Assembly (NCBI RefSeq): GCF_000247605.1
Contig: NC_016894.1
Location: 1,364,001 to 1,428,000 of the forward strand
Origin: Acetobacterium woodii DSM 1030
Lineage (GTDB): Bacteria; Bacillota; Clostridia; Eubacteriales; Eubacteriaceae
Length of the DNA: 64,000 nt
Reading direction: 5' to 3'
Below, in pieces: positions 22,785-39,261 of the stretch; position 1 is the first letter of the stretch, and each line of letters opens with the position of its first letter. Under the pieces are notes generated by a model. It searched no databases and was not told the DNA's origin. It saw only the letters and a list, made by a program, of their open reading frames with translations. Made by a program: the position numbers and the translations under genes.

Positions 22785-23052
22785 GTTGTCACCTCAAACC
22801 GGTACTGATCGCCTTCACCAAGCAACGGGACAAAGATGTTAGAAAGACTTATAATTAATTTGTATATTAACGCTGGCAACAAGTATCCTAAATTAAGGAT
22901 GACGGCGCCCGAAAGTAAAACAATTAGAAAATTTAAAAAAATAATGTCCTAAATGTGTCTTGCAATGACTATGAAATGTTTTTAATATGCCATTTGACTA
23001 CTGTTTCGTAATCAGTAGGTCGGGGGTTCGATTCCCCCCGCTAGCTCCAGTA
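22785..23052 (+). repeat. Attachment-site arm plus tRNA-Thr(CGU) 3' fragment, copy A
   Basis: The 41-bp core 23012-23052 (TCAGTAGG to CTCCAGTA) contains the T-arm, acceptor strand and CCA of a tRNA; the anticodon-loop bases TTCGTAA (anticodon CGT) precede it. No matching 5' half is present, so this is a fragment. The preceding ~200 bp (from about 22785) is similar to the sequence before copy B (about 30713-30940), including ATTAACGCTGGCAACAAGT and TTTTAATATGCCATTT. It is read as a hybrid attachment site of an integrative element. Confidence 0.75.
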
Positions 23053-23070
23053 AGATATAATATTTTATTT

Positions 23071-23101
23071 AAAGAATGGCATTATATAGCCATTCTTTTT
23101 T
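23071..23101 (+). terminator. Terminator next to att copy A
   Basis: AAAGAATGGC pairs with GCCATTCTTT, with a T-run after it. The same hairpin follows copy C at 39183, so it is probably the native terminator of the tRNA gene duplicated with the 3' end. Confidence 0.7.
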
Positions 23102-23810
23102 GATTTTTTCAAATACAAGCTATTATTTGACCTACTGATTACTAATTTAAATATTTTGTTATGGATGGCTTAAACAAGCCATTAATTTTCAATGTGTCGT
23201 AATTTTTGTCGTAAATATAACGGATGGTAATTGCTTTTTAAATTCTCCTTCGTACTCATCCATTCAACAAAAATTCAAATATATATTTCATCATCAATAA
23301 TTCTTGAATATCATTCAATAGCACTTTAAAAACAATAAATTTTATAAGTATTTATATTTGCAATTTAAGACAAATAAATCGATTTAAAAAACACTTGAAA
23401 TATTTCAAATTTAAGATTAGTATTATTTATAGTTAATGAATAAGATTACATAAACTTTTCTAACAATTTATCTATAAACTTCAGTTTATGAGTATTCCGC
23501 TGATTTAGTGCCCCCGGTGGCTCTGCCACCCCGTAATATCCAGTTTAATTGTTGCGCTAAGAAGTAAGTCAAAAAAACTAATAGGCAAGTATTTAAATTC
23601 ATTGAATATCTATTTGCAAAGAATTTATTTTTTTTATTTTCCAGTGCTTTTTAACTCACTATCCAGAGCTTGTAAATCAAAAATACTTAGATATTAAGAT
23701 ATGCAGATCACTTCAAAAGTATATGTCTGTGATACTGTTGAAGATCTAATAAATCTGATCAACTTTGATAAGTTGCCAAAAATGCAATCTCAAATAATAT
23801 TAATTCGAAG
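23102..23810. other. AT-rich intergenic stretch at the left end of the first insert
   Basis: Very AT-rich, with TGTCGTAA twice around 23190-23215 (possible integrase arm sites). A 63-codon frame from 23701 overlaps the next gene and lacks a ribosome binding site; I do not call it. No other gene seen. Confidence 0.4.
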
Positions 23811-23818
23811 GAGATACT

Positions 23819-26038
23819 ATGATAACAAACACTCGTGGTTCAGAATGGAGAAAATGGGATCTACATATCCATACACCTGCTTCAATCGTTAATAATTATG
23901 GTGGTAACAGTGAAGAAATCTGGAATAAATTTATTGATGCTTTAGAAAATCTGCCAGAAGATGTGAAAGTTATTGGTATAACTGATTATTATTTCATCGA
24001 TGGATACGAAAAAGTTATGCACTACCGAACCCAAGGAAGGTTGAAAAATATTGATAAAATATTTCCTATTCTAGAATTCAGAATTGATACATTTGGAAGT
24101 GGTCATGAGAACAACTTGCAAAAGGTTAATCTTCATATTCTCTTTGATTTAAATGAAACTGATTTGAAAAATGAAATCTGTCGAATTAAAAGTGAATTTA
24201 TAGGCATAATTCCTTTATCAGATTTAGAAGAACATTCTACTAAAATGTTATCAATCGAAAATTTAATTAAAGCTGGTGGTTCTCTGCAAAGTGGATTTTC
24301 TACCGTAATTCCTAGTACAAATAAAGTTTTTGAAATAATAAATAGCCAAGCATGGAGAAATAAAACATTCACATTTATAGGGCACAAAGAATGGAATAAT
24401 CTAGAAAAAAATCAGCAACTTAAACCTATTAAACAAGATTTGTATAATAAAGTAGGGGCATTTTTTTCAGCAAACTATACAAGTGTTAGTAAACACCAAG
24501 CATTATTGAATCAATATTTTAATGATAATAAAAGATTATTGCATTCGGGAGACATTCATGACTTTGAAAAACTACCTTCAATTCAAAGTGATGGTTTAAT
24601 TGATTCATCAAATTATTGCTGCAATACATGGATTAAAGCTGATCCAACGTTTCAAGGTTTAAAACAAATAATTTATGAGCCAACTGAACGTGTGATGATA
24701 CAAGAAGAAAGACCAGAAAGGAAATCCAGTTACCAATTAATTGAGTCTGTAACCTTTGATAATGAAAATATGGGTAAACAAAAATTGTTATTTAATCAAA
24801 ACCTAAATACAATAATTGGTGGTCGTTCTTCTGGAAAATCAATATTATTAGGTTGTATAGCTAAAAAAGCCGGTTTTGACGAAGATATAAAAGCAAATAA
24901 TGAATATAATAAGTTTATAACAAGTGAAATATTCCCAGGGTTTGAAATTAATTGGATGGACAAAAATGATGATCCAAAACGAAAGCTATCATATTTTCAA
25001 CAGTCAAAGATCATTTCGTTATCAAAAGGTTCAAAAGAAATAAATGAAATTATTGAAAAAATCATATGTCTTGATGCTAATATATCTCATAGTTTAAAAT
25101 TATACGAAACAACAGTAACGTCAACTAAAGCACAAATTTATCAGCATATAACTGACTTTATAAGCCTTTCCCAAAAATCTTCAGACTTAAAAAAGACAAA
25201 AGAAAGTTATGGCAGTAAGAAAGGTATTCAAGATGAGATTAATCAAATAACAGAACAAATTGATATTTTAAAAGAAAGTGCCAAATCTTCTATAACAGAA
25301 ACCGAGAAAAATTTATTTAATGACTTACAAGAAAAGCGAAAAGAAATATCTCAAAGGAAAGCTGCATACTTAAATGATATACAAAATTTAACTGCTATAA
25401 AAGAAAACGCCTTTACAAGTGCAATCAATGATTCTTTAAAGAGCATATCTCTAGAAAAACTTAGGAATTATTTATCTACGGAATTGGCAAGCATTTTAAC
25501 AACAGCAAATAACAATTGGCGAAATTTTGTTGAGCAGACTGAAGCAACAATGAATCAAGATTTAAAAAATATGACATCGGAAGATTCGAATATTACTCAA
25601 GACGTAACATATATAAAATGTTATGAATTTTATTCAAAAAACAATCAATATAAAAAATTAGATGAATCTTTAAAAAACGAACAAAAAAAATTGCAATCAA
25701 TTGAAGCAATTGAAAAAGAAATCGAAGCAACTGACTCTTTACGCTGGGAAAAAATAAACTCTGCCGTATCACATCATAATAATTTTTATACTAACTTATT
25801 TTCTACAATTTCAAAAATAAGCTTAGAAAAAGACGATGTGAAAATTAAAGCGAATGTATTATTTGACCTGGAATTGTTTTCGTCAAATATTACAGATAAT
25901 TTCAATCTACGGTCGGGTGATGGTAAGAACTATCTGGATATAAATTTGACTAACGATAATTACAACGGTTATGATCAAATAATTGCGGAAATTGTTAGAA
26001 AAATATTAAAAAAAGAAATTATTCTAAAAAACCACTAG
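23819..26038 (+). CDS. PHP-domain / SMC-like ATPase (TrlF-like), N-terminal 739 aa, continued in another frame
   Basis: ATG after CGAAGGAGATACT. Residues ~10-210 form a PHP-type metal hydrolase (WDLHIHTP and VIGITDYYFIDGYEKV). Residues ~320-345 carry a Walker A, GGRSSGKSILLG, followed by a long Lys/Glu-rich coiled coil (~400-650). This layout matches TrlF-type ATPases related to RecF/SMC proteins and OLD-type defence ATPases. The frame stops at 26038, but Walker B and the D-loop continue in the -1 frame (26113-26550). The junction is a perfect slippery heptamer A_AAA_AAC at 26026-26032. It lies between tRNA fragments with other defence genes. Confidence 0.8.
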   Translation: MITNTRGSEWRKWDLHIHTPASIVNNYGGNSEEIWNKFIDALENLPEDVKVIGITDYYFIDGYEKVMHYRTQGRLKNIDKIFPILEFRIDTFGSGHENNLQKVNLHILFDLNETDLKNEICRIKSEFIGIIPLSDLEEHSTKMLSIENLIKAGGSLQSGFSTVIPSTNKVFEIINSQAWRNKTFTFIGHKEWNNLEKNQQLKPIKQDLYNKVGAFFSANYTSVSKHQALLNQYFNDNKRLLHSGDIHDFEKLPSIQSDGLIDSSNYCCNTWIKADPTFQGLKQIIYEPTERVMIQEERPERKSSYQLIESVTFDNENMGKQKLLFNQNLNTIIGGRSSGKSILLGCIAKKAGFDEDIKANNEYNKFITSEIFPGFEINWMDKNDDPKRKLSYFQQSKIISLSKGSKEINEIIEKIICLDANISHSLKLYETTVTSTKAQIYQHITDFISLSQKSSDLKKTKESYGSKKGIQDEINQITEQIDILKESAKSSITETEKNLFNDLQEKRKEISQRKAAYLNDIQNLTAIKENAFTSAINDSLKSISLEKLRNYLSTELASILTTANNNWRNFVEQTEATMNQDLKNMTSEDSNITQDVTYIKCYEFYSKNNQYKKLDESLKNEQKKLQSIEAIEKEIEATDSLRWEKINSAVSHHNNFYTNLFSTISKISLEKDDVKIKANVLFDLELFSSNITDNFNLRSGDGKNYLDINLTNDNYNGYDQIIAEIVRKILKKEIILKNH
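26026..26032 (+). promoter_or_regulatory. Candidate -1 ribosomal frameshift site
   Basis: A AAA AAC stands in the zero frame as ...CTA AAA AAC CAC TAG. Slipping one base back gives AAA AAA CCA CTA GAA, exactly the frame that continues the ATPase. The stop codon lies one codon after the heptamer. I see no strong downstream stem-loop, so a plain A-run indel remains possible. Confidence 0.4.
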
Positions 26039-26550
26039 AAACAGTTTTAATTGGACTTCTATCCTCAAATTATTTCTATCGCAGTTATAACGTATATTAT
26101 GATAATGATGAATTGACAGAAATGTCTGAAGGAAAACGAGCTTATATAATACTACGATTATTACTAGATTTTAATGAAGATGATTGTCCGATATTAATTG
26201 ACCAACCTGAAGATGACTTGGATAATAGAGCCATATCAGGGCAATTAGTTGAATATTTAAGGAAAAAGAAAAAAGAACGACAAATAATACTTGTAACACA
26301 TAATCCAAATATTGTTGTAGGAGCAGATTCAGAACTTGTGATTGCGGCTAATCAACACGGAATAAACAATAAAAATGATGAAGGCCTAAAATTTGCATAT
26401 ATTGCCGGCAGTTTAGAACACTCAAAAGCAAATGATGGTTCAGATTTCATATTATCATCCCAAGGTATAAGAGAACACGTTTGTGAAATCTTAGAAGGTG
26501 GCGAGAAGGCATTTAACAAACGTGAACAACGATACGGATTTTCTCAATAA
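26032..26550 (+). CDS. C-terminal part of the PHP/SMC-like ATPase, in the -1 frame
   Basis: From the junction the frame reads PLETVLIGLLSSNYFYRSYN, then EMSEGKRAYIILRLLL (ABC-type signature region), CPILIDQPEDDLDNR (Walker B and D-loop) and ILVTHNPNIVVGADSE (H-loop). These are the motifs missing from the upstream frame, so both parts form one ~910-aa ATPase. An internal ATG at 26122 has no ribosome binding site. Without frameshifting the upstream product would lack half of its ATPase site. Confidence 0.75.
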   Translation, partial: PLETVLIGLLSSNYFYRSYNVYYDNDELTEMSEGKRAYIILRLLLDFNEDDCPILIDQPEDDLDNRAISGQLVEYLRKKKKERQIILVTHNPNIVVGADSELVIAANQHGINNKNDEGLKFAYIAGSLEHSKANDGSDFILSSQGIREHVCEILEGGEKAFNKREQRYGFSQ

Positions 26551-26832: not shown

Positions 26833-26872
26833 GAACGTGTAATTGAGCTTAATTATGCCGGTAATCTTCAAT

Positions 26873-26930
26873 GCAAATTGTCACCTAAAACCGGTGCGGT
26901 TCGCCTCCACCAAGCAAAGTGACAAAATTT
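26873..26930 (-). repeat. Dispersed repeat related to the att arms
   Basis: TGTCACTTTGCTTGGTGGAG (minus strand) and the following CCGGTTTTAGGTGACA are similar to parts of 22795-22835 and 30713-30765. The ends GTCAC and GTGAC are inverted. It may be an IS end or a copied attachment arm. Confidence 0.45.
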
Positions 26931-27070
26931 CAATGGTTTTAATCAAATTCCCTTGCGTTTCTTAATAATTGTCGTAATACGGTAGGGTACGCCAAGAGCA
27001 CACCATAGTACTGAGCCGTTTTCTTCTTTCCGATTTCGGTTTATGAATAAAGCATTCAGCATATTTACTT

Positions 27071-27105
27071 TCGTACTAATAATGTTTATAATATTAGTAT
27101 GAAAG
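27071..27105. promoter_or_regulatory. AbiE promoter with a large inverted-repeat operator
   Basis: Arms CTTTC-G-TACTAATA (about 27069-27082) and TATTAGTA-T-GAAAG (about 27092-27105) flank a -10 TATAAT at 27087-27092. A repressor bound here would cover the promoter. AbiEi antitoxins are known to repress their own operon by binding inverted repeats, so AbiEi is the likely ligand. Confidence 0.75.
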
Positions 27106-27116
27106 GAAGTGAAATC

Positions 27117-27710
27117 GTGAAACAATATGAACAGCTGGATAAATTGATGGCCGATCATGACGGCATTGTTCAAACTTCGCAGGTTGTTGCCAAAGGAATT
27201 TCTAAACCTGTTTTTTATGATTATATCAAAGAGAAAAAATTGGAACGGGTGGCCCATGGCGTCTATGCTTCAGCGGATGCCTGGATCGATACGCTGTATC
27301 TGGTTCATCTTCGTAGTAAACAAGCTGTCTTTTCTCATGAAACCGCTTTGTTTCTTCATGATTTGACCGACCGAGAACCAGCTCCCTATTCGATTACAGT
27401 TAAGACTGGCTATAATCCCAACCGACTGAAAGCCGATGGAGTCCAGGTTTATACGGTTAAGCCCGAGCTTCATGTAGTAGGCCGCACCATTGCTCAGACG
27501 TCCTTTGGACATACAGTTCCGGTTTATGATATGGAAAGAACCATCTGTGATCTGATCCGCAGTCGCAAAGGGATAGAAATTCAAACCTTTCAAGACGCAA
27601 TAAAGCAATATGTCCGACGCAAAGATAAGAATTTGCGAACATTAATGCAGGATGCATCCCTGTTTCGGGTTGAAAAAATTTTGCGACAATATCTGGAGGT
27701 ACTGTTATGA
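27117..27710 (+). CDS. abiEi: AbiEi-type antitoxin / transcriptional autoregulator
   Basis: 197 aa from the GTG at 27117, 7 nt after AAGGAAG; the ATG at 27099 lies within the operator and is unlikely. Residues ~1-60 form a winged helix (LMADHDGIVQTSQVVAKGIS, KKLERVAHGVYAS), the AbiEi antitoxin N-domain; the C-terminal part (HETALFLHDLTDREP, VYDMERTICDLIRSR) is the AbiEi C-domain. Type IV antitoxins neutralise the AbiEii nucleotidyltransferase without binding it. The stop overlaps the toxin start (ATGA). Confidence 0.9.
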   Translation: MKQYEQLDKLMADHDGIVQTSQVVAKGISKPVFYDYIKEKKLERVAHGVYASADAWIDTLYLVHLRSKQAVFSHETALFLHDLTDREPAPYSITVKTGYNPNRLKADGVQVYTVKPELHVVGRTIAQTSFGHTVPVYDMERTICDLIRSRKGIEIQTFQDAIKQYVRRKDKNLRTLMQDASLFRVEKILRQYLEVLL

Positions 27711-28561
27711 TTAAGACATCAAAACAATTGAAGGATTTGATCCGTAATCTATCAAAAAAGAAAGCAGCGGATGCCCAAATGCTGATGCGACATTATATGA
27801 TGGAACGATTTCTGGAGCGAATTTCTCTTTCTGAGTATAAAGATCAATTCATTTTGAAGGGGGGAATTCTAGTAACGGCGATGATCGGGTTAAACGCAAG
27901 ATCGACCATGGATTTAGATGCAACGGTAAAAGGAATTAATGTGAATGCCGATGACGTTGAGCAGATCGTTGCTTCGATTGCCTCGATTCCCCTGGACGAT
28001 GGTGTATCTTTTTATATCAAGAGCATTGGTGAGATAATGGATGAAGCCGAGTATCCAGGGATCAGGGTTAGTATCGAGACGAAATTTGACGGCGTGATCA
28101 CACCATTTAAGGTGGATATTTCCACAGGTGACATCATTACCCCTAAAGAAATTCGGTATCAACTCAAGCTGATGTTGGAAGAACGTGCAATTGATATCTG
28201 GGCTTACAACCTGGAGACAATTCTGGCTGAAAAGTTGGAAACCATTATTTCCCGCAATACTACCAATACCCGGATGAGAGATTTTTATGACCTCCACAGC
28301 CTGCTTCAATTGTATGGTGAAAACATGAATCCTGCAGTTTTCAATCAGGCACTGATGGCAACTACGAACAAGCGTGGGACAGAGCATTATTTAACCGATA
28401 TGATGTTAATCGTTGATGAAGTGGAAAATAGTAGTGTCATGGAAAATCTTTGGCTGGCTTATCAAAAGAAATTTTCTTATGCATCGGAAATTACATGGAA
28501 GACAATTATGGAATCCGTCCGCAATTGCATGGGGTTGATTAGAATGGAGGGCAGACATTAG
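27707..28561 (+). CDS. abiEii: AbiEii-type nucleotidyltransferase toxin
   Basis: 284 aa. The nucleotidyltransferase core is at FILKGGILVTAMIG followed by ARSTMDLDAT, with the GG...R.T.D.D motif of AbiEii/AbiGII/MenA toxins; a second acidic stretch PFKVDISTGD and WAYNLETILAEKLETI follow. Family members block growth by adding nucleotides to tRNA or other RNA and give phage abortive infection. It overlaps abiEi by 4 nt. Confidence 0.92.
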   Translation: MIKTSKQLKDLIRNLSKKKAADAQMLMRHYMMERFLERISLSEYKDQFILKGGILVTAMIGLNARSTMDLDATVKGINVNADDVEQIVASIASIPLDDGVSFYIKSIGEIMDEAEYPGIRVSIETKFDGVITPFKVDISTGDIITPKEIRYQLKLMLEERAIDIWAYNLETILAEKLETIISRNTTNTRMRDFYDLHSLLQLYGENMNPAVFNQALMATTNKRGTEHYLTDMMLIVDEVENSSVMENLWLAYQKKFSYASEITWKTIMESVRNCMGLIRMEGRH

Positions 28562-29110
28562 TTATTCTATGGCACATTCGTTTTTAAAGTCTAATAAAAG
28601 TGGTAATACATGTACAAGTATAAATATTCGAAAAAAAGACAAAAAAGTGTCGTAAATATGTCACATATCATATAAAGATGTCTTTAATAAGCCATTTACC
28701 TATTCTTAGTGGTCCATTCTGTTTTGTTATCTGTGTGTTGTGTATTGAGTATTCCGACAGTGAAATCCCATCTGCAGAAATACTGTCCCATCATTCACGA
28801 TTATTAAATTAGAGTGGTCTTTTTACTTGAAAGAATAAATGTTACGTTGCATAATAGAGTTAATATATCCGCTTGCGAATTTAAAAGAGGTGATATTAAC
28901 GATGAACGGTGAAAAATACAAGTGATTCTGAATTAATTTACATATTAACTCTGGCAACAAGTGTCCTACATTATTATATGTACAAAAGGCGGGTATGTAA
29001 GCCGTTTTTTAAATTTCCTCACCACATATACAAGCATTCGTCGTAAAAAATGTCGATTTGTTACTGTTATTCATCGTAATATGTGTTAAGATGGATTAGA
29101 ACACGAAAAT
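28562..29110. other. Intergenic stretch with a repeat copy
   Basis: No gene is seen. 28918-28975 resembles the att-arm segment around 30770-30830 (AAGTGATTCT..AATTAATTT, ATATTAAC.CTGGCAACAAGT, CCTACAT). TGTCGTAA-like motifs occur near 28650 and 29040. This suggests old element ends inside the first insert. Confidence 0.45.
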
Positions 29111-29122
29111 GAGGTGAAGAAA

Positions 29123-30349
29123 ATGGAACGATTGGCAATGGAACAGTTAAATAAATGGAAGATAAAGAAAAACAAAAAGCCTCTCATTATTAGAGGGGCA
29201 CGGCAGGTCGGTAAAACCTGGTTGATGAAAAACTTTGGACAGAAAACCTATGATCACGTTGTTTATATCAATTTTGATAATAACCAGCAGATGAAAGATC
29301 TGTTTGAAGCTAATATGAAGATTGAACGAATAATCACAGGCCTGGAACTTTATTCAGGAAATAAGATCGATCCCGAAAATACCCTGCTTATTTTTGATGA
29401 AATACAGGAAGTACCCAAGGCATTGACTGCCTTAAAGTATTTTAATGAAAATGCACCGGAATATCAAATTATCTGTGCAGGATCATTGCTGGGGGTTGCT
29501 TTGCACCAGGGGACATCATTCCCCGTTGGCAAGGTAGAATTTCTTGACCTCTATCCTTTGTCCTTTACAGAATTTATGAAAGCTATGGGAAAAGAGCAAT
29601 TTTTCGAACTCATCGAAAAAGGCGATTATGAGTTGGCAAATACATTTAAACAGGAATACATTGACTTGCTCAAATATTACTATTTTGTTGGTGGGATGCC
29701 GGAAGTCGTCGTCAACTTTGTAAATAATCAGGATTTTAATGAGGCAAGAGAGATACAGAAGAGAATCCTGACTGCCTATGAGCAGGATTTTTCGAAACAT
29801 GCTCCAAATGAAGTGATCCCACGGATTCGGATGTTATGGAATAATATTCCGTCCCAGCTCACTAAAGAAAACAAGAAGTTTATCTATGGTCTGATCAAAG
29901 AAGGGTCACGGGCAAAAGACTATGAAATGGCGATGCTCTGGCTGACAGATTGCGGTCTTGTTCACAAAGTCCAACGGGTAACAACACCGGGACTGCCATT
30001 AAAGGCATATGAAGACTTGAAAGCATTCAAACTGTTCATATTGGACGTTGGTTTACTATCTTGTATGGTTAGACTGAATCAAACAGTTCTGCTTGATGGT
30101 AACGATCTGTTCAAAGAGTTTAAAGGTGCGTTGACAGAGCAATATGTGCTCCAGCAGTTAAAGACGCTGGAGGGCATTGAAACCTATTACTGGACAAATG
30201 ATCGAGGAAGTGCTGAGATTGATTTTCTTGTTGATAATGGAAGCGATGTGTTTCCTATTGAGGTCAAGGCTGAGACCAATTTGAAAGCTAAAAGCTTGAA
30301 AACCTATTATGAAAAATTCAGTCCCAAATATCAATTCGCACCTCGATGA
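29123..30349 (+). CDS. AAA_14 / DUF4143 family ATPase, C-terminus frameshifted
   Basis: 408 aa from the ATG at 29123 after GAGGTGAAGA. AAA domain with Walker A GARQVGKTW (~residue 25) and Walker B LLIFDEIQEVPKAL; the C-terminal DUF4143 domain has AEIDFLVD and FPIEVKAE, a restriction-nuclease-like E..D..EVK pattern. The frame ends at TGA 30347, but the normal tail continues in the -1 frame (IRTSMMDYKKEEWLINLPLW) up to 30432, so one base is missing near 30333 relative to relatives. The function of the family is poorly known; it is common in mobile islands. Confidence 0.88.
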   Translation: MERLAMEQLNKWKIKKNKKPLIIRGARQVGKTWLMKNFGQKTYDHVVYINFDNNQQMKDLFEANMKIERIITGLELYSGNKIDPENTLLIFDEIQEVPKALTALKYFNENAPEYQIICAGSLLGVALHQGTSFPVGKVEFLDLYPLSFTEFMKAMGKEQFFELIEKGDYELANTFKQEYIDLLKYYYFVGGMPEVVVNFVNNQDFNEAREIQKRILTAYEQDFSKHAPNEVIPRIRMLWNNIPSQLTKENKKFIYGLIKEGSRAKDYEMAMLWLTDCGLVHKVQRVTTPGLPLKAYEDLKAFKLFILDVGLLSCMVRLNQTVLLDGNDLFKEFKGALTEQYVLQQLKTLEGIETYYWTNDRGSAEIDFLVDNGSDVFPIEVKAETNLKAKSLKTYYEKFSPKYQFAPR

Positions 30350-30432
30350 TGGATTATAAGAAGGAAGAATGGCTGATTAATTTGCCTTTGTGGGCAATCA
30401 ATACATTGCAAATGAAGTTATCTTATATATAA
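30334..30432 (+). pseudogene. Out-of-frame C-terminal tail of the DUF4143 ATPase
   Basis: RTSMMDYKKEEWLINLPLWA and the following INTLQMKLSYI match the usual end of DUF4143 proteins, in the frame one base back from the main gene. Confidence 0.6.
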
Positions 30433-30626
30433 AGTATGCAAAGTACACAAATGCTGTTGTTGAAAAGATGTTTAATACTATGAAATTAGGTTAATATATA
30501 ATAATTAGGAACTGAGAAGTTTGCCCCTTTTTTTGCCCATTAATCGCAGAGAAAAATGAGCAAAAGCAGATAAAGACAACAAACAAAACGGCGGTATATC
30601 AACAAATGAATAATTTAAACTAATAA

Positions 30627-30673
30627 GGCTACGAACCGGAAGGTCGGGGGTTCCTATCCCCCAGGGCACGCCA
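30627..30673 (+). repeat. 3' fragment of a tRNA-Arg(ACG) gene, degenerate
   Basis: The sequence runs from an anticodon loop CTACGAA through GGTCGGGGGTTC and CCCCC to CACGCCA. There is no 5' half, and the T-loop TTCCTAT departs from the consensus TTCRANY. It looks like the duplicated 3' end left by an element that once used a tRNA-Arg gene. Confidence 0.6.
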
Positions 30674-30712
30674 TATATTTGAACGATTTACTTAGAGCAA
30701 TTATGAAAAGCA

Positions 30713-30981
30713 AATTGGGACTTCGATTCGGTACGGATCGCTTCCACTAGGTAAAGTGACAATGAAGATAAAGTGATTCTTAATTAATTTGTGCATATTA
30801 ACGCTGGCAACAAGTGCCCTACATAAAGGATTACGGCTCTCGAAAGCAAGGCGATTTAGAAATTAAAAAATAATGTCCTAATTGTGTCCTTTTGCAACTA
30901 TTAAATGCTTTTAATATGCCATTTACCTACTGGTTCGTAATCAGTAGGTCGGGGGTTCGATTCCCCCCGCTAGCTCCAGTA
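30713..30981 (+). repeat. Attachment-site arm plus tRNA-Thr(CGU) 3' fragment, copy B
   Basis: The core 30941-30981 is identical over 41 bp to copies A and C; with copy A the identity extends back through TTCGTAA. The ~220 bp before it resembles the arm before copy A. The integrase gene begins 9 bp after the core, on the other strand. Confidence 0.78.
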
Positions 30982-30989
30982 TCAAGTAA

Positions 30990-32177
30990 TTAAGCCCCTT
31001 CTGAGGGCTTTTTATTTTTGCCTTTTTTATTTTGCCCCTTATAGAATTTATCAAGCTTATTTGATGTCATTTTCTTTTGTTTTTCCAACACAGTAGTATA
31101 GGTATTTAAGGTCTCTGAAATATCAGCATGTCCCATCAGCATTTGAACAGTCTTGGGAGCTTCCCCCAGTTCAAAGAGACGTGTCGCATAGGTATGCCTG
31201 AGATCATAAAATCGTTTATTAGCAATTCCACAGGATGCATAAATCTTCTTAATTCGTTTATTCATATTTTGCCGATCTAGGTGAGTACCAATTGAATTAC
31301 TGAAAACAAGAAAGTCACTTTCAACAGGGATTCCATATTTTAAGAACAGTTCTTTTTGATTAGTTTGATATTGCTTTAATTTGGTCAAAATGCCATCAGG
31401 AATGGGAACGAGTCGATTAGCATTTTTTGTTTTTGGTGGTCCAGTCACTCCAATATATTTATTCAAATCTATATCTTTACTGACTTTATAAGCCTTGTTT
31501 ACTCGAATCGTTTTTTCTTCAAAGTCAATATCTTCCCAGATTAGTGCAGAAAGCTCCCCAGGGCGTAAACCGGAATACATGCCCATAAGATAAAGCATCT
31601 CATAATCATCATCTTTAATTGCAATTTCGAACTTCTTTTGTTCCTTGATTGTCAGAGGCCTGACAGTAGGGGTAGGAGTCTTGATTATGGTTCTATCTTC
31701 CGGAATTTTGATAATTTTTGAAAAATCATTTGGGATACGTGAGGTTTCAGCTGCAAAGCGGATCGCAGGCCGTATTATTTTATTAATTCCATTAATCACG
31801 CTGGTTGACACGCCTGCTTTAAAAAGTTTGTTATACCAATCTTGGATCTTCTTTGGAGTCAGAGCTTTAAGCGGATCCTTAGCAACTGGTGAATTTTCAA
31901 TGTAATTTCTGAATTTATTATCATAGGATTCTTTTGTCAATGGCTTTTTATCCACTAAATGGACCTGATAAAGCCAGTATTTGACAAATTCACCAAAGGG
32001 TTGGGTATCGGTTGAAAGATCCCCATCCATTTCTTTTTTTGCTTTTCCAATCTTTTCTTCCATTTCGCTAACACTAGTTGCGTAAATATCTTTTGGCCGA
32101 TTATCTTTATAAAACAGCTGGAAGAAGTAATATTCAGTACCGTTCTTAGTTTTTTTCTTATACGTTTTTCTTGCCAT
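30990..32177 (-). CDS. Tyrosine recombinase (site-specific integrase)
   Basis: 395 aa. Residues ~1-60 are an arm-binding, AP2-like N-domain (YKKKTKNGTEYYFFQLFYKD); ~65-150 the SAM-like core-binding domain; ~175-380 the catalytic domain, with the first Arg in MYSGLRPGELSALIW, DLRHTYATRL, MLMGHADISET and the nucleophile Tyr in NTYTTV. The common FHDLRHT is FYDLRHT here. It ends 9 bp from att copy B and points toward it, as in many tRNA-targeting elements. The last codons lie in the hairpin at 30992-31013. The gene starts one base inside the ImmA/IrrE stop. Confidence 0.95.
   Translation of the reverse strand: MARKTYKKKTKNGTEYYFFQLFYKDNRPKDIYATSVSEMEEKIGKAKKEMDGDLSTDTQPFGEFVKYWLYQVHLVDKKPLTKESYDNKFRNYIENSPVAKDPLKALTPKKIQDWYNKLFKAGVSTSVINGINKIIRPAIRFAAETSRIPNDFSKIIKIPEDRTIIKTPTPTVRPLTIKEQKKFEIAIKDDDYEMLYLMGMYSGLRPGELSALIWEDIDFEEKTIRVNKAYKVSKDIDLNKYIGVTGPPKTKNANRLVPIPDGILTKLKQYQTNQKELFLKYGIPVESDFLVFSNSIGTHLDRQNMNKRIKKIYASCGIANKRFYDLRHTYATRLFELGEAPKTVQMLMGHADISETLNTYTTVLEKQKKMTSNKLDKFYKGQNKKGKNKKPSEGA
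30992..31013 (+). terminator. Hairpin at the att B / integrase junction
   Basis: AAGCCC (30992-30997) pairs with GGGCTT (31005-31010), followed by TTT on the plus strand. It can end plus-strand transcripts crossing the att site, while the minus strand encodes the integrase C-terminus. Confidence 0.6.
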
Positions 32178-32620
32178 TAAAATATCCTCATTTCTTTATT
32201 GCTTAGTTCAGTTATCAATGCTGCTCGTTTTATTATGGATTCAACAGGAACGCCGTATTTTTCAGCGAGATCCCATTCGTTTAATTGCTTCAGATCTCCT
32301 TCAAACATGCTTGGAGGCATAAGGAAATAAGCTGCAAAAGCATTGGCTTGAGCTTCAAATCGACTGGAATGGATGAAAAAATCATGCATAAGAATATGAC
32401 CAAGTTCATGAGCTAGGGAAATTCGGAATTCAGTATCCGGAAGATTGGCTACAAAAAGAGTTTGGTCAAAAACACAAGATTTTCTAAGAGTGGGAATAAT
32501 CACGATATCAAAATAATGATCAATGATTATTTGCTCAATGGCGTAGATGGGTATGGGAAATTCTGAAATATTATTTGACTGCAATGTCTTAAGAGCACAT
32601 TTTTTAATATATTTAAACAT
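32177..32620 (-). CDS. ImmA/IrrE family metallopeptidase
   Basis: 147 aa from the ATG at complement 32620, preceded by AGGAGGTGTT; an upstream start at 32656 is unlikely. The zinc motif HELGH lies in SLAHELGHILMHDF, with QANAFAAYFLMPPSMF after it, as in ImmA and IrrE. These peptidases cleave phage-type or ICE repressors during DNA damage to allow excision. No XRE-type repressor gene is next to it in this element, which is unusual. Co-transcribed with the integrase (1-bp overlap). Confidence 0.9.
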   Translation of the reverse strand: MFKYIKKCALKTLQSNNISEFPIPIYAIEQIIIDHYFDIVIIPTLRKSCVFDQTLFVANLPDTEFRISLAHELGHILMHDFFIHSSRFEAQANAFAAYFLMPPSMFEGDLKQLNEWDLAEKYGVPVESIIKRAALITELSNKEMRIF

Positions 32621-32658
32621 AACACCTCCTAAAAGAACAAGTGTTCTACATGGCAAAA

Positions 32659-32831
32659 TTATAACATAAATATTTAACAGTAAATATAAATCTTAGAGTA
32701 AAATTTTGCTACTTTTAAAATCGTGATAATATAACAAAAACTGATATTATTATAACGTAAATTACAATTTATATTCAATAATGATAAAATTTATAACATA
32801 AATTGACATTATATAACAAATAATGTATAAT
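32659..32831 (+). promoter_or_regulatory. AT-rich divergent control region with TTATAAC iterons and the ATPase promoter
   Basis: A repeated direct motif TTATAACRTAAAT occurs at 32659-32671, 32751-32764 and 32792-32805, with a partial TATATAACAAAT at 32811. A promoter TTGACA (32804-32809) with a 16-bp spacer and TATAAT (32826-32831) drives the ATPase/protease pair; the last iteron overlaps its -35. The iterons are probable repressor sites for the divergent genes. Confidence 0.65.
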
Positions 32832-32855
32832 TGTTTTGAAATATGGAGGAGAAAA

Positions 32856-33953
32856 ATGTATACGGAAATTGTAAAGATAATTGAAGGTGGTATGTCAAAT
32901 GATAAAGAAAAGGTTTTTAATTATGCCACATTATTGGCGGATAATTTAGAAAAAGAAGGGGACGTTAATTTTTCAAAAAAAATCAGAACAGTTCTTTCAA
33001 AAAAAAAGAGTAGTCTAGCTTCGTTAGATAGTCTCAATTCCAAACCAGTTGATCAAGAAAGTCGTATGGATATTATTAATGTTACATATCCTACAAAAGA
33101 GAGTAACGAAATAATATTAAACAAGACAACCAAAAATGAAATAAATGAATTCATTCAAGTCTATAAGCAACGTAATAAACTTATGAAAGCAGGTATGGAA
33201 GTTGGAAATTCTTTACTTCTATATGGCCCACCTGGTTGTGGAAAAACTTCACTTGCTTCTTATATTTCTTATAAAACAGATTTACCATTAGTTGTTGCAC
33301 GTCTTGACTCTTTAATATCTTCATTACTCGGAAGCACGGCTAAAAATATACGAAAAATATTTGAATATGCATCAAAAAATGAGTGTATTCTGTTTTTAGA
33401 TGAATTTGATGTAATTGCAAAACTACGAGATGACAAACATGAAATGGGTGAATTAAAACGAGTGGTCAATAGTCTGATCCAGAATATCGATGAATTCAGT
33501 GAAAATAGTATTTTAATTGCAGCAACAAATCATGAAGAATTGCTCGATAATGCAGTATGGAGAAGATTTTCTTGGATATTGAAACTAGACAAACCGAATC
33601 ATGATGAAATTGTTTTTTTATTAGAAGATTTGCTAAAAAATACCGAAACAAATATTTTAGAAAGCAAAGGAAAAAGAAAAAAAATATCTTTTATAAATGA
33701 GTTGTATGGTTTTAGTCATGCCGACATCAAAAATATAATTAATAAATGTATCAGGAAATCAATAATTAATAATATCAATGAGATTAATAATTGGGATATT
33801 TTAACAGAGGTGTATTTAAGAAAAAACCATGAAATAGAAAATGAAGATAAATTCATTAAATATTTATACATTAATGGGGTGACACAGGAAGAAATTAATA
33901 AGTATTTGAATGTTTCTTTGCGTACTGTACGAGAAGCTACTAAATTAGATTAA
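32856..33953 (+). CDS. ietA: AAA+ ATPase of an IetAS-like defence pair
   Basis: 365 aa from the ATG at 32856 after GGAGGAGAAAA; the upstream frame overlaps the -10 box. Residues ~1-95 form an N-domain; ~95-280 the AAA+ domain with Walker A GPPGCGKTS (~125), Walker B CILFLDEFD (~182), sensor 1 AATN and arginine finger WRRF. The C-terminus (GVTQEEINKYLNVSLRTVRE) looks like a helix-turn-helix. The ATPase + subtilase pair matches the anti-phage system named IetAS. The ATPase may activate or present substrates to the protease (inference). The gene is 20 nt upstream of the protease. Confidence 0.85.
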   Translation: MYTEIVKIIEGGMSNDKEKVFNYATLLADNLEKEGDVNFSKKIRTVLSKKKSSLASLDSLNSKPVDQESRMDIINVTYPTKESNEIILNKTTKNEINEFIQVYKQRNKLMKAGMEVGNSLLLYGPPGCGKTSLASYISYKTDLPLVVARLDSLISSLLGSTAKNIRKIFEYASKNECILFLDEFDVIAKLRDDKHEMGELKRVVNSLIQNIDEFSENSILIAATNHEELLDNAVWRRFSWILKLDKPNHDEIVFLLEDLLKNTETNILESKGKRKKISFINELYGFSHADIKNIINKCIRKSIINNINEINNWDILTEVYLRKNHEIENEDKFIKYLYINGVTQEEINKYLNVSLRTVREATKLD

Positions 33954-33973
33954 ATTTGAAGGGGGATAGATTA

Positions 33974-36304
33974 ATGGTAAAAAGAGAATTGCTTCCAATT
34001 AAGTTTTTTTCAAAAAGAGATAGTGATAGTTTAAGAACTGAAGGTGGGCCGTCTCAAGATCCGAGCTGGATTCTAAATGATGAAAATCTAATTATCAGAT
34101 CTAACATGCTTGATGATAATATGACTGAAATTGATGAATTATTTAATAAGCGTAAAATTGACTATTTACCACTAGTGATCGAAGTTGATATTTTTGAAAA
34201 AGCGATAGCAAAGACGCATAGAAATGCGATAGCAAGCCTGTTTTCAATGAAAAACGGTAGTGAGATTATTGGAATGATTTCAGAAACAAAATTATTGGTA
34301 AAAGTAAACAGTAAAGAACATGCTAGAAAAATCCGTAGTAAAATAAAAGATACAGAAAAATATAAACATGCTTTATCCGCAGTGGAAAATATAGAGCCCT
34401 TTTCACCAATTATCAAAAAAAAGAAAGACGTAAAAACATATAAAATTGTATTGGTAAACTATGAAAATTATGAATTGAATTTATCAGCGGAAAGAAATTT
34501 TGAATTTAGTTGCAATCAAAAAGGGGTCGCTTTTAACAAAACAGTTTATACAGAAGATTTGACTGTTTATAAAATTAAAAATGCGGATCTGGATGTGTTA
34601 TTTGATGATGAAAATATTTCTGAAATCATCTTTGAAATCACACCAATGCCATTTATACACGCTTCATTAGACGCTTTAGAAAGCCCAAACGATTTTCAGA
34701 TACAAGTTCCGGATGATAAAAAAAGTTATCCAATTGTGGGGGTTTTAGATAATGGAATTGAATGTATTCCACATTTAGAACCATGGCTTTTAAAGGATAA
34801 GTATTCTGCTTATCCACCTGATTTAGTTGCAAAAAATCACGGCACAGCTGTTGCCAGTATAATTGTTTATGGAGATGCATTGGAAAATAAAGAACTAACT
34901 GGGAATAGCGGTTGCTTTATTTTTGATGCTACAGTATTTCCTGATCTAACAAAAGAAGATCTTGAAGAAGACGAGCTTGTTGCTAATATAAATGAAGCTA
35001 TTTCGCAGAACTGTTTGAATATCAAAATTTGGAATTTATCAGGTGGATTTCAACAGGAGATTGAAGATGAAAAATTTTCGGATTTTGCTATGGCTTTGGA
35101 TAGTATTCAAGATCGATACGGAGTAGTAATTTGTAAATCAGCTGGTAATTGTAAAAACTTTAAAACTGGTAAACCTAAAGGTAAAATCAATATCGGTGCC
35201 GATTCTGTAAGAGCTTTGACTGTTGGTTCAATAGCCCAATCTAAGGCAGAATCCGATTACTCAGAAATAAACTATCCATCTCCTTTTACCAAAATCGGTA
35301 GAGGGCCTGGCAATATAATTAAACCTGAGTTGGTACATTTTGGAGGAAACGCAGGCAAAAACACTGTCTCGGGAGTAAAAGTAATTAATGTTAATGGTGA
35401 ACTTTCTGAATCTGCGGGAACAAGTTTTGCTACTCCACGAATTGCAGATCTGTTATCTGGATTAGAAAATGAAATTGCCGATGAATTCGATCCATTATTG
35501 GTCAAGGCTTTAGCGATTCACTCATCAAACTATCCTAAAAACGTTAAAATGACTCAAGAAAACAAAGTTAAAGAAATGGGATTCGGCCTGCCAAAGCCAA
35601 TTAATGAAATACTGTATAACAATCCAAATGAAGTAACGCTAATCCTCAAAGATACACTTGAAAAAAGTAAGTTCATTGATATCCTTGATTTTCCAATGCC
35701 TGATTGTTTAGTTTTTGATGGAAAATTTACAGGACAAATTATAGCGACATTAGTTTATAATCCATATTTAAAAACAGCTCAAGCAAATGAATATTGTCAA
35801 TCAAATATTGATATATACATGGGTACTTTTGATGAAAAAACTCAAAGAGATACATCTAAATTCAATGTACTAAATCCAATAGGCAGAAAAGGCTCCCATA
35901 ATTTATTAAATCCGTCATGCTATAGTGCTACAAAGCTAAAAGCAATGAATGACTCTTTCTCAAAATCTGAAAGATTTTTAACGAAGTGTGGAAGTAAATT
36001 CTATCCTATCAAGAAATATGCAGTTGATTTAAAAGATTTGACAGATGGAAATAAAGAAAAATATCTTGGTTCAGGTAGGAAATGGTTTTTGAAAATTGAG
36101 GGATTATATAGAAGTAGTATTGAAGATGAAGCAATAAAAAATAATGAAATATTGAGTCAAGATTTTTGTCTTGTGCTAACAATTAAGCATCCAAACCCTG
36201 ACGTGCCCGTTTATAATGAAGTTGTAAAAGGGCTTGCAGAAAACAATTTCTGGCATCAAAATATTAACTTGCGAAATCAAATCAATGTCGTGTTACATAA
36301 TTAG
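33974..36304 (+). CDS. ietS: Subtilisin-like (S8) serine protease of an IetAS-like defence pair
   Basis: 776 aa from the ATG at 33974 after AAGGGGGATAG. Residues ~1-245 form an N-terminal region without signal peptide, so the protease is cytoplasmic. The S8 catalytic triad is present: Asp259 in VGVLDNGIE, His289 in NHGTAVAS, Ser484 in AGTSFATPRIA, with the oxyanion Asn in CKSAGN. The ~240-aa C-terminal part is not assignable. Together with the upstream AAA+ ATPase it matches IetAS, a known two-gene defence system; on phage attack it probably cuts host or phage proteins (inference). Confidence 0.88.
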   Translation: MVKRELLPIKFFSKRDSDSLRTEGGPSQDPSWILNDENLIIRSNMLDDNMTEIDELFNKRKIDYLPLVIEVDIFEKAIAKTHRNAIASLFSMKNGSEIIGMISETKLLVKVNSKEHARKIRSKIKDTEKYKHALSAVENIEPFSPIIKKKKDVKTYKIVLVNYENYELNLSAERNFEFSCNQKGVAFNKTVYTEDLTVYKIKNADLDVLFDDENISEIIFEITPMPFIHASLDALESPNDFQIQVPDDKKSYPIVGVLDNGIECIPHLEPWLLKDKYSAYPPDLVAKNHGTAVASIIVYGDALENKELTGNSGCFIFDATVFPDLTKEDLEEDELVANINEAISQNCLNIKIWNLSGGFQQEIEDEKFSDFAMALDSIQDRYGVVICKSAGNCKNFKTGKPKGKINIGADSVRALTVGSIAQSKAESDYSEINYPSPFTKIGRGPGNIIKPELVHFGGNAGKNTVSGVKVINVNGELSESAGTSFATPRIADLLSGLENEIADEFDPLLVKALAIHSSNYPKNVKMTQENKVKEMGFGLPKPINEILYNNPNEVTLILKDTLEKSKFIDILDFPMPDCLVFDGKFTGQIIATLVYNPYLKTAQANEYCQSNIDIYMGTFDEKTQRDTSKFNVLNPIGRKGSHNLLNPSCYSATKLKAMNDSFSKSERFLTKCGSKFYPIKKYAVDLKDLTDGNKEKYLGSGRKWFLKIEGLYRSSIEDEAIKNNEILSQDFCLVLTIKHPNPDVPVYNEVVKGLAENNFWHQNINLRNQINVVLHN

Positions 36305-37020
36305 CTATTACTTAAGTCTTTTTCGATAGTTTTAATTGTTTTCTTTTGATTTTCACTTGTTGTCTTCGAGTATTCTTTGCAGGTATAGTAGCTATCTAAA
36401 CTATAAATAGAAAAAAGATTAAAAATCAAAGAAAACATTTCGATTATTCCGTGCATGATTATTAATAGATAAATAAATATAATAAGAAAGCTAGAAATGT
36501 TTTTTATGTTAAGTGATATAAAATTCAAAATATCCGGGTTGGCTGATATGATCGACACAGTAATTTTTATAAATAGGCTTAGTACTAATGTGAAAATATA
36601 GTAAAACAAAACGCCCAAAATATGAATCAAATAATTTTGAAATTTATTATATGGGCCATTTTTTATTGAAGATAACTTCATAATAGTTTTGGGAGTTACA
36701 ATTGCTTGCATTAGTGCAAATCCTGTTAATCCGGCTGCAAAAAAAGCTATGTTCACGCCGATGCTACAATCGACAAATTGAGTAAAAATTAATGAAGTTG
36801 AGTTGCTGATTATGAGAAAACATGTAATCACAATAGAAGGAATAATTATAAATAAATATAAAATCCATAATTCACTTGTGGGTTTTATTTTTTTTAGACC
36901 GTCTATAATCAGTGATGATAATGGCTTGGAATTTTGATCATCAATAACTGCTATTAAATCAAGAAAATCATCAGAAGCGGTTGATGTACTCGTATTTGGA
37001 GACTCATTACTGTTCTTCAT
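36301..37020 (-). CDS. Predicted multi-pass membrane protein, unknown
   Basis: 239 aa from the ATG at complement 37020 (MKNSNESPNTSTSTASDDFL); an earlier start (37056) lies deep in the next gene. An acidic, Ser/Thr-rich N-tail is followed by about four hydrophobic helices (WILYLFIIIPSIVITCFLII; CSIGVNIAFFAAGLTGFALM; YLIHILGVLFYYIFTLVLSL; ISSFLIIFIYLLIIMHGIIE). It converges on the protease gene with stops overlapping by 4 nt, and overlaps the 50-aa gene upstream by 14 nt. I recognise no family. In this setting it may be a membrane effector or accessory of the island. Confidence 0.7.
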   Translation of the reverse strand: MKNSNESPNTSTSTASDDFLDLIAVIDDQNSKPLSSLIIDGLKKIKPTSELWILYLFIIIPSIVITCFLIISNSTSLIFTQFVDCSIGVNIAFFAAGLTGFALMQAIVTPKTIMKLSSIKNGPYNKFQNYLIHILGVLFYYIFTLVLSLFIKITVSIISANPDILNFISLNIKNISSFLIIFIYLLIIMHGIIEMFSLIFNLFSIYSLDSYYTCKEYSKTTSENQKKTIKTIEKDLSNS

Positions 37021-37159
37021 TTTCTTCTGATGTTTTTTCGTTGTATTCTGGATCATTTAGTATTGCCGTAATTATATCGCTAGTGGTTTCATAAGAATCA
37101 TTTATTGGATTTCGATTTCTTTCAGGGGTTATTACTTCATTGAGATTCTTTTTATTCAT
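37007..37159 (-). CDS. Small 50-aa protein upstream of the membrane protein
   Basis: ATG at complement 37159 after a strong AAGGAGAACTT site. The product is polar and acidic (MNKKNLNEVITPERNRNPIN to YNEKTSEENEEQ), with no membrane segment. The stop lies 14 nt inside the next gene, so the two are translationally coupled. No family recognised. Confidence 0.55.
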   Translation of the reverse strand: MNKKNLNEVITPERNRNPINDSYETTSDIITAILNDPEYNEKTSEENEEQ

Positions 37160-37372: not shown

Positions 37373-37516
37373 TCAGGAAATAGTTTGAATTACACTGGCA
37401 GCTTGCAGTAAATATGGTCCAGCAGCAATCAGAACATCAATTCCTTTATCGGCTATGAATTTGAGACAATTTTCGACTTTTGACTTAAGTCCGTCTTTGT
37501 TTTTTGAAGCAATCAT
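37373..37516 (-). CDS. Doubtful 47-aa open frame
   Basis: An ATG with a weak AAGG site opens MIASKNKDGLKSKVENCLKF, continuing to GIDVLIAAGPYLLQAA. It may be a fragment of a longer gene; it abuts the start of the broken gene on the other strand at 37517. No family recognised. Confidence 0.25.
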   Translation of the reverse strand: MIASKNKDGLKSKVENCLKFIADKGIDVLIAAGPYLLQAASVIQTIS

Positions 37517-37914: not shown

Positions 37915-37986
37915 GTTTGTTTTATAAGCTAATCTTATTTTTAGAATTTAAAGTCGATTTATCAATGTGAAGGGAAGAGGAGTCAT

Positions 37987-38832
37987 ATGCCGGAATTAGT
38001 TTTAAAAAGTAAAGAAATAGAAGTGCTCTCAGTATCTATTGAAATGAGCGAAAATGATTTTGCCACCATTGAATCAGAAATAACAAATGCAAATGAATAT
38101 TATTAAAAAAAATGTAATGATAATTACGTTGGAAAAATTGAAATAACTGATAACAGAGTAAATATTAAAAATGAAGTAAGATTTAAAGGGGATAAGTCAC
38201 CAGATCTCTGGTTTTCCAAAGAAAAAAGATTGACGAATAACATATGTATCGACGATTTTTTAGCTGATGATTCTATTCAAAATAAAGAAAGAAGAATCAT
38301 TATTGTGTTAGAAAGTCCGCATGTAAATGAGTTTGAGATTGGCGGGAACCCAATCCCTGCTATTGGAGCAACAGGATATGCACTAGAGAATAAATTTTCG
38401 GAAATATTTGATAATTATTTAAAATCGAAAGATTCAGATATTAGATTTGATGATGGTTATTATCACGTTTTTATAATGAATGCTATTGAATACCAGTGTA
38501 GTTTAGGTTTTAGTACATCAAGATATAGAGATATTGTGTTTAAAAGCCTATGGGAACAAAATGAAATTATAGATAGTTTTAGTTCAAGGTTAAGCAAGTA
38601 CAATCCAATAATTACAATTTCATTATGTACAAAAGGAAACAAAACTAATTTTAAGAAAATTGCTTTAGATAGCTTTGATTATTGTAAAGATAAAAAATTA
38701 ACTATGCGGAATATGGTTATTAATGAAATAGTTTCTAATTCTGATTTAAATCAAGAGCATAAAATAATTAGAGGGTGTCACCCGTCAAGCTGGAATCGTA
38801 GGAAAGCATTTAGAAAATTTCAAAAAATTTAA
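37987..38832 (+). CDS. Unknown protein with a uracil-DNA-glycosylase-like look, interrupted by an in-frame stop
   Basis: An ATG after AAGGGAAGAGGAGTCAT opens MPELVLKSKEIEVLSVSIEM; TAA at 38104-38106 interrupts, and the same frame then runs open to 38832. The downstream part (alternative TTG start at 38230, 200 aa) has IIIVLESPHVNEFE, YHVFIMNAIEYQ and GCHPSSWNRRK; the ESPH / NA / HPSSW spacing recalls uracil-DNA-glycosylase-like proteins, but I am not sure. The whole gene would be 281 codons. It ends the cargo of the second insert. Confidence 0.5.
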
Positions 38833-39120
38833 AAATGAATCAAATATCAAAAATTATAAAATTCACCGTAATATTCAATGATCAATGGTGTAATAAAAGT
38901 TTAATGTCTCAATCACCACAGCAATAATAACGGTGTACCTATTAGTGATGGAATAGAGTTTCAGTATCATTCTTCTATCTATATCAGGTGTTCCCCGAAT
39001 TTTAAATTTGCCCCCTATTTTGCCCCTTATTCTTAAAAAACCAAAAAATTAAACAAATCAAAAAACCGCATAATATAGGCATTTGTGAATGCTCTAAAAT
39101 TAAAATAAACATACTTTGAT
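38833..39120. other. Intergenic stretch at the right end of the second insert
   Basis: AT-rich, no gene seen. The segment TTTGCCCCCTATTTTGCCCC (39006-39025) has a counterpart at 30520-30540 (TTGCCCCTTTTTTTGCCC) and at the integrase 3' end, so it may be part of the element ends. Confidence 0.4.
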
Positions 39121-39123
39121 ATT

Positions 39124-39164
39124 TCAGTAGGTCGGGGGTTCGATTCCCCCCGCTAGCTCCAGTA
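39124..39164 (+). repeat. tRNA-Thr(CGU) 3' fragment, copy C (right border)
   Basis: 41 bp identical to 23012-23052 and 30941-30981 (TCAGTAGG to CTCCAGTA). The upstream flank is unlike copies A and B, while the downstream flank with its terminator is like copy A. It marks the right border of the second insert. Confidence 0.78.
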
Positions 39165-39182
39165 AAAAATAATATTATGTTA

Positions 39183-39213: not shown

Positions 39214-39261
39214 ATTCTTTGATTTTAATCTAGTAAGCGTCAATTGTAGACCACATAGTAG

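Follow-up and report, generated by a model that had tools for sequence, protein, structure and literature searches.

The 64,000-nucleotide stretch of the Acetobacterium woodii DSM 1030 genome analyzed here (positions 1,364,001-1,428,000 of contig C1 of genome G000; hereafter the window, to which all coordinates without a prefix refer) contains two inserts with defence genes, bounded by copies of a tRNA-Thr(CGU) 3' end. A preliminary description of the window had presented them as two back-to-back inserts; they are indeed bounded by attachment (att) sites and carry defence genes, but the stack to which they belong has five segments, spans 131 kb and follows a single intact tRNA. This stack was most probably built by site-specific elements that accreted at the single tRNA-Thr(CGU) gene, with segment A being an integrative and conjugative element (ICE), segments B, C and D resembling cis-mobilizable elements (CIMEs), and segment E a separate element.

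The tRNA-Thr(CGU) site and its five segments

The 41-bp tRNA-Thr(CGU) 3' end occurs, exactly as first described, at 23012, 30941 and 39124, with spacings of 7929 and 8183 bp. When the whole genome (one contig of 4,044,777 bases) was searched with a 38-base core, allowing up to three mismatches, six copies were found, all exact and all on the same strand, and a reversed-pattern control gave 0 matches in this genome and 0 in the 19 Acetobacterium genomes, G000 included, that formed the genus sample. Because three further copies lie upstream of the window (C1:1272449, 1343476 and 1353458), the window inserts are the last two, D and E, of five tandem segments (A, 71.0 kb; B, 10.0 kb; C, 33.6 kb; D, 7.9 kb; E, 8.2 kb). 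Examination of the six copies with ARAGORN identified an intact tRNA-Thr(CGU) only at C1:1272411-1272486, 115 kb upstream, where it encloses the copy at C1:1272449, as expected for the target. ARAGORN found no tRNA in the window, and none of its three copies belongs to an intact tRNA gene, as the preliminary description had held.

Displaced att copies at 23005-23052 and 30934-30981 (both + strand) consist of the anticodon-loop sequence TTCGTAA (23005-23011 in the first) and the 41-bp 3' end (23012-23052 and 30941-30981). The array's last copy, at the right end of E (39124-39164, +), has GATATT before the core, as in G018, G016 and G010. A terminator-like hairpin opens each left end (z between -1.9 and -5.2 across the six copies); those in the window lie just after att at the left end of D, followed by a T run (23071-23098, +; z -3.9), and after the last att copy (39182-39211, +; z -4.4). 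The single intact tRNA, the displaced 3' ends in one orientation and these hairpins are the basis for stacking. Elements would integrate at the tRNA-Thr(CGU), which the incoming copy of the 3' half would rebuild, and each insertion would bring a terminator and push older elements downstream, from which the order of arrival can be inferred. The T-stem is paired in all 16 intact tRNA copies of the genus (11 GGGGG/CCCCC and five GGCGG/CCGCC) and contains unpaired positions in five of 36 displaced copies, a pattern consistent with each integration replacing the 3' half of the tRNA and with the displaced copies then drifting. Just to the right of the last att, the sequence at 39232-39586 resembles an element with several copies in G013.

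Integrases of family PF00589 are encoded at 11 places in the genome, two of which, in A and E, fall within the array. No member of the PF00239 recombinase family was found in the array, and neither family was found in B, C or D, so the earlier assignment of an integrase to the second insert and not the first was upheld. B, C and D are each flanked by attL/attR-type repeats. No conjugation genes were found among the open reading frames (ORFs) of B-D sent to Pfam, a set from which five C ORFs (70-144 aa) and the AbiE pair of B were left out.

In segment A, the integrase gene adjoins the tRNA. The segment also encodes a MobA/VirD2-type relaxase, a TraG/VirD4-type coupling protein (T4SS-DNA_transf), a VirB4/TraG-like ATPase (P-loop_TraG), a T2SSE ATPase, a cell-wall hydrolase, a Y-family polymerase and a group II intron reverse transcriptase. 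Since it combines an integrase, a relaxase, a coupling protein and type IV secretion system (T4SS) genes, segment A is classed by gene content as an ICE. A prophage, suggested by a 2698-aa ORF, was ruled out by the List_Bact_rpt family of that protein, by the relaxase and T4SS genes, and by the lack of a structural PHROG match for the six segment A proteins sent; A_1340639, considered as a lysin, was assigned by Pfam to the Y-family polymerases. The T2SSE ATPase lies beside an AAA_31 protein (C1:1298793-1300145 and 1297961-1298833; L162), perhaps as part of a Tad-like pilus, and two very long genes, at C1:1304382-1312478 and 1329896-1336648, encode the 2698-aa List_Bact_rpt protein and a 2250-aa SNF2/Eco57I-like protein.

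Segment ends, TGTC repeats and the makeup of D and E

Over ~255 bp, right-end identity among B, C and D is 82%, with B and D nearly identical. The right end of C (22800-23052, no strand assigned) is 82% identical to those of B and D over 256-259 columns and 92.5% identical to that of A over the last 67, and the right end of A is 76% identical to those of B and D over 258 columns. At the left ends, ~150-200 bp are common to A, B and C; ~98 bp are shared by D and are also found in the right flank. Neither end of E resembles these: its right end is unlike those of A-D, and its left end has nothing but the core in common with the others. Thus B, C and D fit the description of CIMEs, as integrase-less segments with right ends, and for B and C also left ends, of the A family. 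The block common to A-D and the tRNA includes TTCGTAA, with element-side flanks CTACTG(N) and TCAGTAGG, and crossover probably occurs within this TTCGTAA-containing block.

Pairs of TGTC repeats, 11 bp apart from start to start at -66/-67 from the core, were found at 22 of 36 displaced ends, those of A-D included, and at none of 16 tRNA 5' flanks. In the window they lie at the right ends of C (TGTCCTAAATGTGTCTTG, 22945-22962, +) and D (TGTCCTAATTGTGTCCTT, 30874-30891, +). With end classes set by the regular-expression class of the core, the pair is present at 19 of 20 type-I ends, three of 12 other ends and none of four E-type ends; these rows are not independent, since the tRNA flanks are homologous to one another and some of the cassettes nearly duplicate others. 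Because TGTC(G/C)(C/T)A repeats also lie beside the integrase gene of A and those of its close relatives, they are putative integrase binding sites of the arm type. Left ends with an A-type integrase carry three repeats each, of the form TGTCGCA in A, TGTCGTA in G001 and TGTCCTA in G004 and G014. In other genera of the family, TGTCGTA repeats accompany the genes of three distant relatives of the A integrase (L168, L169 and L174), two of which adjoin tRNA-Ala or tRNA-Gly.

The arm classes suggest that D is composite. Its left end carries two TGTCGTA sites with a 12-bp period (23195-23213, +), followed by a Ppl/TrlF-like gene (23819-26550, +). Near 26.0 kb, where the sequence is A-rich, a frame change divides this gene into a 739-aa ORF (23819-26038) and a 145-aa ORF (26113-26550). 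The 145-aa ORF matches PADLOC Ppl (2.2e-18); no Pfam or PADLOC family was found for the 739-aa ORF at E 0.01, the cut-off used for both databases. The right arm of D (26862-30981, +) is 98.2% identical to that of B over 4122 columns, the left part of B being different. It encodes an AbiEi antitoxin-like protein (27099-27710, +; PADLOC AbiEi 1.2e-71; 97% to the B copy), an AbiEii toxin-like nucleotidyltransferase (27707-28561, +; Pfam AbiEii 6e-40; PADLOC 4.6e-99) and an AAA_14-DUF4143 ATPase (29114-30349, +; PADLOC candidate PDC-S01; 99% to the B copy over 405 aa). The AbiE and DUF4143 genes first listed for this insert were thus confirmed, and its TrlF-like gene only in the 145-aa part.

Inside D lies a fossil right end (28648-28706, +), in which the arm pair TGTCGTAAATATGTCACA (28648-28665) precedes ..AAGCCATTTACCTA. 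It contains the usual end sequence ..CCATTTACCTA with no core after it, where G002 has an intact core; the best core-like match in 28501-29100 has 22 mismatches in 38 positions. The AbiE cassettes of G002, G009 and G006 match the right arm of D up to 28702, stopping at -12 from their own core, and the two sites at D's left end are of the same TGTCGTA class as the fossil end. D therefore looks like a TGTCGTA-class Ppl-AbiE cassette fused, via a lost att, to a part that carries DUF4143 and has a right end of the TGTCCTA class, and such a fusion would explain its mixed arm classes.

Segment E encodes a tyrosine integrase (30990-32177, -; Pfam 3.8e-23) that is 90% identical to integrases of G018 and G016 and 25% identical to that of A, an ImmA-like M78 peptidase (32177-32656, -; Pfam 5.7e-15), the AAA ATPase IetA (32823-33953, +; PADLOC 1.9e-139) and the subtilase IetS (33956-36304, +; PADLOC E 0, 1053 bits), in agreement with the genes first proposed for the second insert. 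A 251-aa ORF (36301-37056, -) has no Pfam or PADLOC family, and no Pfam family was found for a 200-aa ORF (38230-38832, +). The ends of E match those of a 36-kb prophage of G018 with the 90%-identical integrase, and its left end and integrase match elements in G018 and G016, the G018 element being this prophage. By these criteria E is an element of its own, with an integrase, phage-type ends and IetAS as cargo.

It had been suggested that the first insert is a trapped satellite mobilized in trans by the integrase of its neighbour. D and E do share the same 41-bp core, and the integrase of E is the nearest one. However, E-type ends lack the TGTC pair and have only the core in common with D, whose right end is of the type seen in the 71-kb ICE at the tRNA and not of the type seen in E. 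Because E has other ends, shared with a relative's prophage, D would not be cognate to its integrase. This origin of D is therefore very improbable, and "integrase-less, fused derivative of ICE-type elements", that is, CIME-like, fits D better than "satellite". Phage-inducible chromosomal islands (PICIs), which are phage satellites, are small helper-dependent islands with defence cargo located at tRNA genes. Among the segments, E comes nearest to them; B, C and D differ in lacking an integrase and in having ends of the ICE family. No phage-interference or packaging gene was recognized in E with Pfam or PADLOC, three of its ORFs being without assignment.

Cassette sharing among Acetobacterium genomes

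An intact tRNA-Thr(CGU), one per genome by pattern, is present in 16 of the 19 genomes, including all 14 of good quality. In 14 of these 16, it is followed by an integrase-bearing element or more att copies or, in G012, by a cassette also present in G003 and G006. Twenty-five complete segments could be bounded in 12 genomes, and 18 of them (3.2-33.6 kb) lack an integrase, 12 of the 18 having an arm pair. PF00589 was run on nine of these 12 genomes; the other three, G013, G017 and G018, yield only integrase-bearing segments. Copies known only from named contigs fall outside these counts, as do extra displaced att copies with two mismatches in G003 (L115; C33, near 4.2 kb) and G014 (L117; C12). 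L115 lies ~63 kb beyond the last counted copy of G003, whose array may be longer. PADLOC cargo in the relatives' segments includes Gabija GajA/GajB, BovA, LmuA/Avs-like proteins, Mokosh MkoA/MkoB with a methylase, PDC-M38A and PDC-S01; 10 of 20 non-randomly chosen proteins matched at 1e-10, two of the segments (G006 C111 and G004 C19) having no left att on the stretch read.

Near-identical cassettes recur in different species. A "phosphoribosyltransferase + AbiE" cassette is 95.5-98.9% identical among G002, G006, G009 and G010, the shared block starting between -8 and 0 from the core in five of six pairs. An "FMN (flavin mononucleotide) reductase/DUF1638" cassette is 98.9-99.9% identical among G003, G006 and G012 and starts at -12 from the core in two pairs with different left neighbours. 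The tRNA flanks are 78-83% identical in G002/G010 and 74% in G003/G012; the other sharing pairs could not be compared in this way, since G006 and G009 yielded no tRNA flank. In G006 an att separates the FMN reductase and AbiE cassettes, which in G003 are fused without one. In A. paludosum (G005), a 6.9-kb integrase-less cassette lies between the tRNA and the next cassette, of which the left end, and not the cargo, matches the tRNA-proximal cassette of A. tundrae (G015), the flanks being 97% identical. Since near-identical, core-bounded cassettes occur in different species, this sharing favours the view that integrase-less cassettes have moved by site-specific recombination, probably either in trans or in cis together with a cognate ICE. 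Cassettes carry defence, toxin-antitoxin, surface or metabolic genes and fuse on loss of an internal att.

The alternative that B, C and D are dead remnants of ICEs that integrated one after another and lost their genes in place, with nothing integrase-less moving, is unlikely but has points in its favour: B-D do not have the arm class of A, few genomes have a close A-type integrase, D holds a dead att, and no right att was found for the AbiE cassette of G010, which is decayed. Decay in place does not account for near-identical integrase-less cassettes in which the shared block begins at the core next to unlike neighbours, the flanks of the two comparable species pairs being 74-83% identical, or for the extra 6.9-kb cassette of G005. 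Homologous recombination between arrays through common ends, by transformation or large conjugative transfer, is a less probable explanation still, although it may account for part of the sharing. Type-I right ends are alike over ~250 bp, enough for exchange; 70-86 bp before the core are common to two pairs; and the 4.1-kb right arm of B and D, at 98%, looks like a duplication or homologous exchange. Against it, the shared block begins at 0 in G010, where the cassette follows an E-type end, and at -7/-8 in G002, where it follows another end type, the short core being all that is common there.

Several observations weigh against site-specific movement by ICEs of the A family. The right arms of B, C and D carry TGTCCTA and that of A carries TGTCGCA, so A may not act on B-D, and the family likeness of D's left end is limited to ~98 bp and the two TGTCGTA sites. 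Among eight more distant family integrases, three have at least two TGTCGTA repeats beside the gene, two have one and three have none. An A-type integrase (at least 74% identity) was found in just four of 19 genomes, always adjoining the tRNA, which leaves many cassettes without a close resident mover. Shared blocks begin well before the core in G006/G009 (-86) and in G003/G012 (-70, both behind the tRNA), because the left neighbours are alike. Integrases were not significantly biased to the tRNA-proximal slot among complete segments (5/9 vs 2/16, p 0.058), and a p of 0.0024 obtained with hand-picked open segments is not relied on; nor was AbiE enriched at arm-paired ends (10/22 vs 3/14 at others, p 0.18), so AbiE was dropped as a constant end module. 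The AbiE part occurs alone in contig C64 of G017 (93% over 1848 bp), with no core within the 16.6 kb read, although in this draft genome the stretch may still be part of an array; the first insert as a whole was not seen colinear without the repeats. Cargo genes of C are also found in A. tundrae on stretches without att. Finally, A. bakii (G001 C77, contig_80; L063) and A. fimetarium (G003 C33; L060) share 9.1 kb at 100%, including Gabija genes, with flanks of 72-78%, which may reflect recent transfer or contamination.

The origin of at least one cassette lineage is suggested by its junctions. In the cassettes of G003/G001 C77, G005 and G015, the left end is A-like to about the end of A's integrase gene; after a further ~30 bp the match to A resumes at its position 68988-68989, within the polymerase gene (3' part), and extends over as much as 457 bp. 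In G002 the polymerase piece is 65 bp long and comes after 89 bp, and in G004 the piece starts at 69070. Because these junctions are common to relatives' cassettes, they are most simply read as the product of a single internal deletion in an A-type ICE, with cargo loaded later. The junction was found in relatives' cassettes and not in B-D; the ends of B and C are homologous to ICE A, and C's left end resembles the deletion lineage minus the polymerase piece. More tentatively, a short arm-site code (TGTCGCA, TGTCGTA, TGTCCTA) could set which ICE integrase moves which cassette, in which case an integron-like, integrase-less stack, with defence genes in many cassettes, would still be shuffled between species by visiting ICEs; we consider this possible rather than probable.

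The preliminary description had proposed searching related genomes for an empty tRNA-Thr site, and none was confirmed among the genus genomes. G007 (L107, contig C111) is a possible empty site: it has one copy, a family-type terminator stretch and a 970-aa ORF, with no integrase in the 6 kb read, and beyond ~100 bp after the core no DNA match to the other regions fetched. In G011, the contig ends ~80 bp after the core. Among viral contigs, the core was found in one, with a different end type, and no relative of the A integrase was confirmed; all plasmid matches were below 60% identity.

Related systems and further observations

CIME-type accretion accounts well for B-D as judged from their ends and gene content. 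CIMEs are described as att-flanked segments without integration or transfer genes, located beside related integrase-bearing elements, arising by decay of ICEs or integrative and mobilizable elements and stacking at one site, in PMC5704250, of which the reference list names ICESt1 work in Streptococcus thermophilus. Here, too, att-flanked segments without an integrase, and without transfer genes among the ORFs compared with Pfam, are stacked at one site beside a related ICE, from whose kind they may have decayed. Unlike the CIMEs described there, they have a tRNA-Thr anticodon-loop core, defence or toxin-antitoxin cargo in many segments, an integrase-less majority (18/25) and arm-site classes, their movement being inferred. 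Dehalococcoides ssrA islands, as described in PMC3146451, also lie in tandem, within 100 kb of one RNA gene, and are marked by its 3'-end repeats; 16 have an integration module and 15 do not, the latter being called possible cis-mobilizable elements. Those islands involve a serine recombinase, tmRNA and reductive dehalogenase cargo, in contrast to the tyrosine recombinase and tRNA-Thr here. Clusters of attC sites lacking integron-integrases (CALIN) are likewise arrays of integrase-less cassettes, which could depend on an integrase encoded elsewhere (PMC11389934); here, tRNA 3' ends serve as boundaries and each cassette holds several genes.

Tandem CIME-type arrays are thus already known from Streptococcus and Dehalococcoides, and the array here is a defence-rich variant that recurs in the genus with an apparent arm-site code. 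Among the literature matches listed, no title or abstract opening concerns this locus; a provirus and a metabolic operon, which may or may not lie at this site, are reported in A. wieringae (PMC10134865). Defence genes are in many cases located on islands for which no mover is apparent, and a search limited to integrases would overlook 18 of the 25 complete segments here. In this cultured acetogen, the ends, the probable mover family and putative binding repeats are readable from sequence, and helper-dependent movement of defence cassettes is therefore directly testable.

Segment B carries a ChW/YDG surface protein, DUF4143 and AbiEi/ii. Segment C (C1:1353458-1387011) contains transposase fragments and metabolic genes (corrinoid protein, URO-D, molybdoenzyme subunits, chemoreceptor and transporters). 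Its right 23 kb (1-23011, no strand assigned), in which no PF00589 integrase was found, encode by Pfam a corrinoid protein, molybdoenzyme subunits, a major facilitator superfamily (MFS) transporter, a chemoreceptor, MarR and two ATP-binding cassette (ABC) transporters. That C is displaced native chromosome is suggested by corrinoid and chemoreceptor genes to the right of the last counted att in G003, and by corrinoid genes in G013; the family ends on both sides of C argue against this. In G010, the segment at C1:3414469-3425998 combines a left end of type I with a right end of the E type, has no integrase and is probably a fusion across a lost att. A metagenome-assembled genome called Bacteroidales (JASGMZ010000048.1; L144, L151) carries this att array and is probably misbinned.

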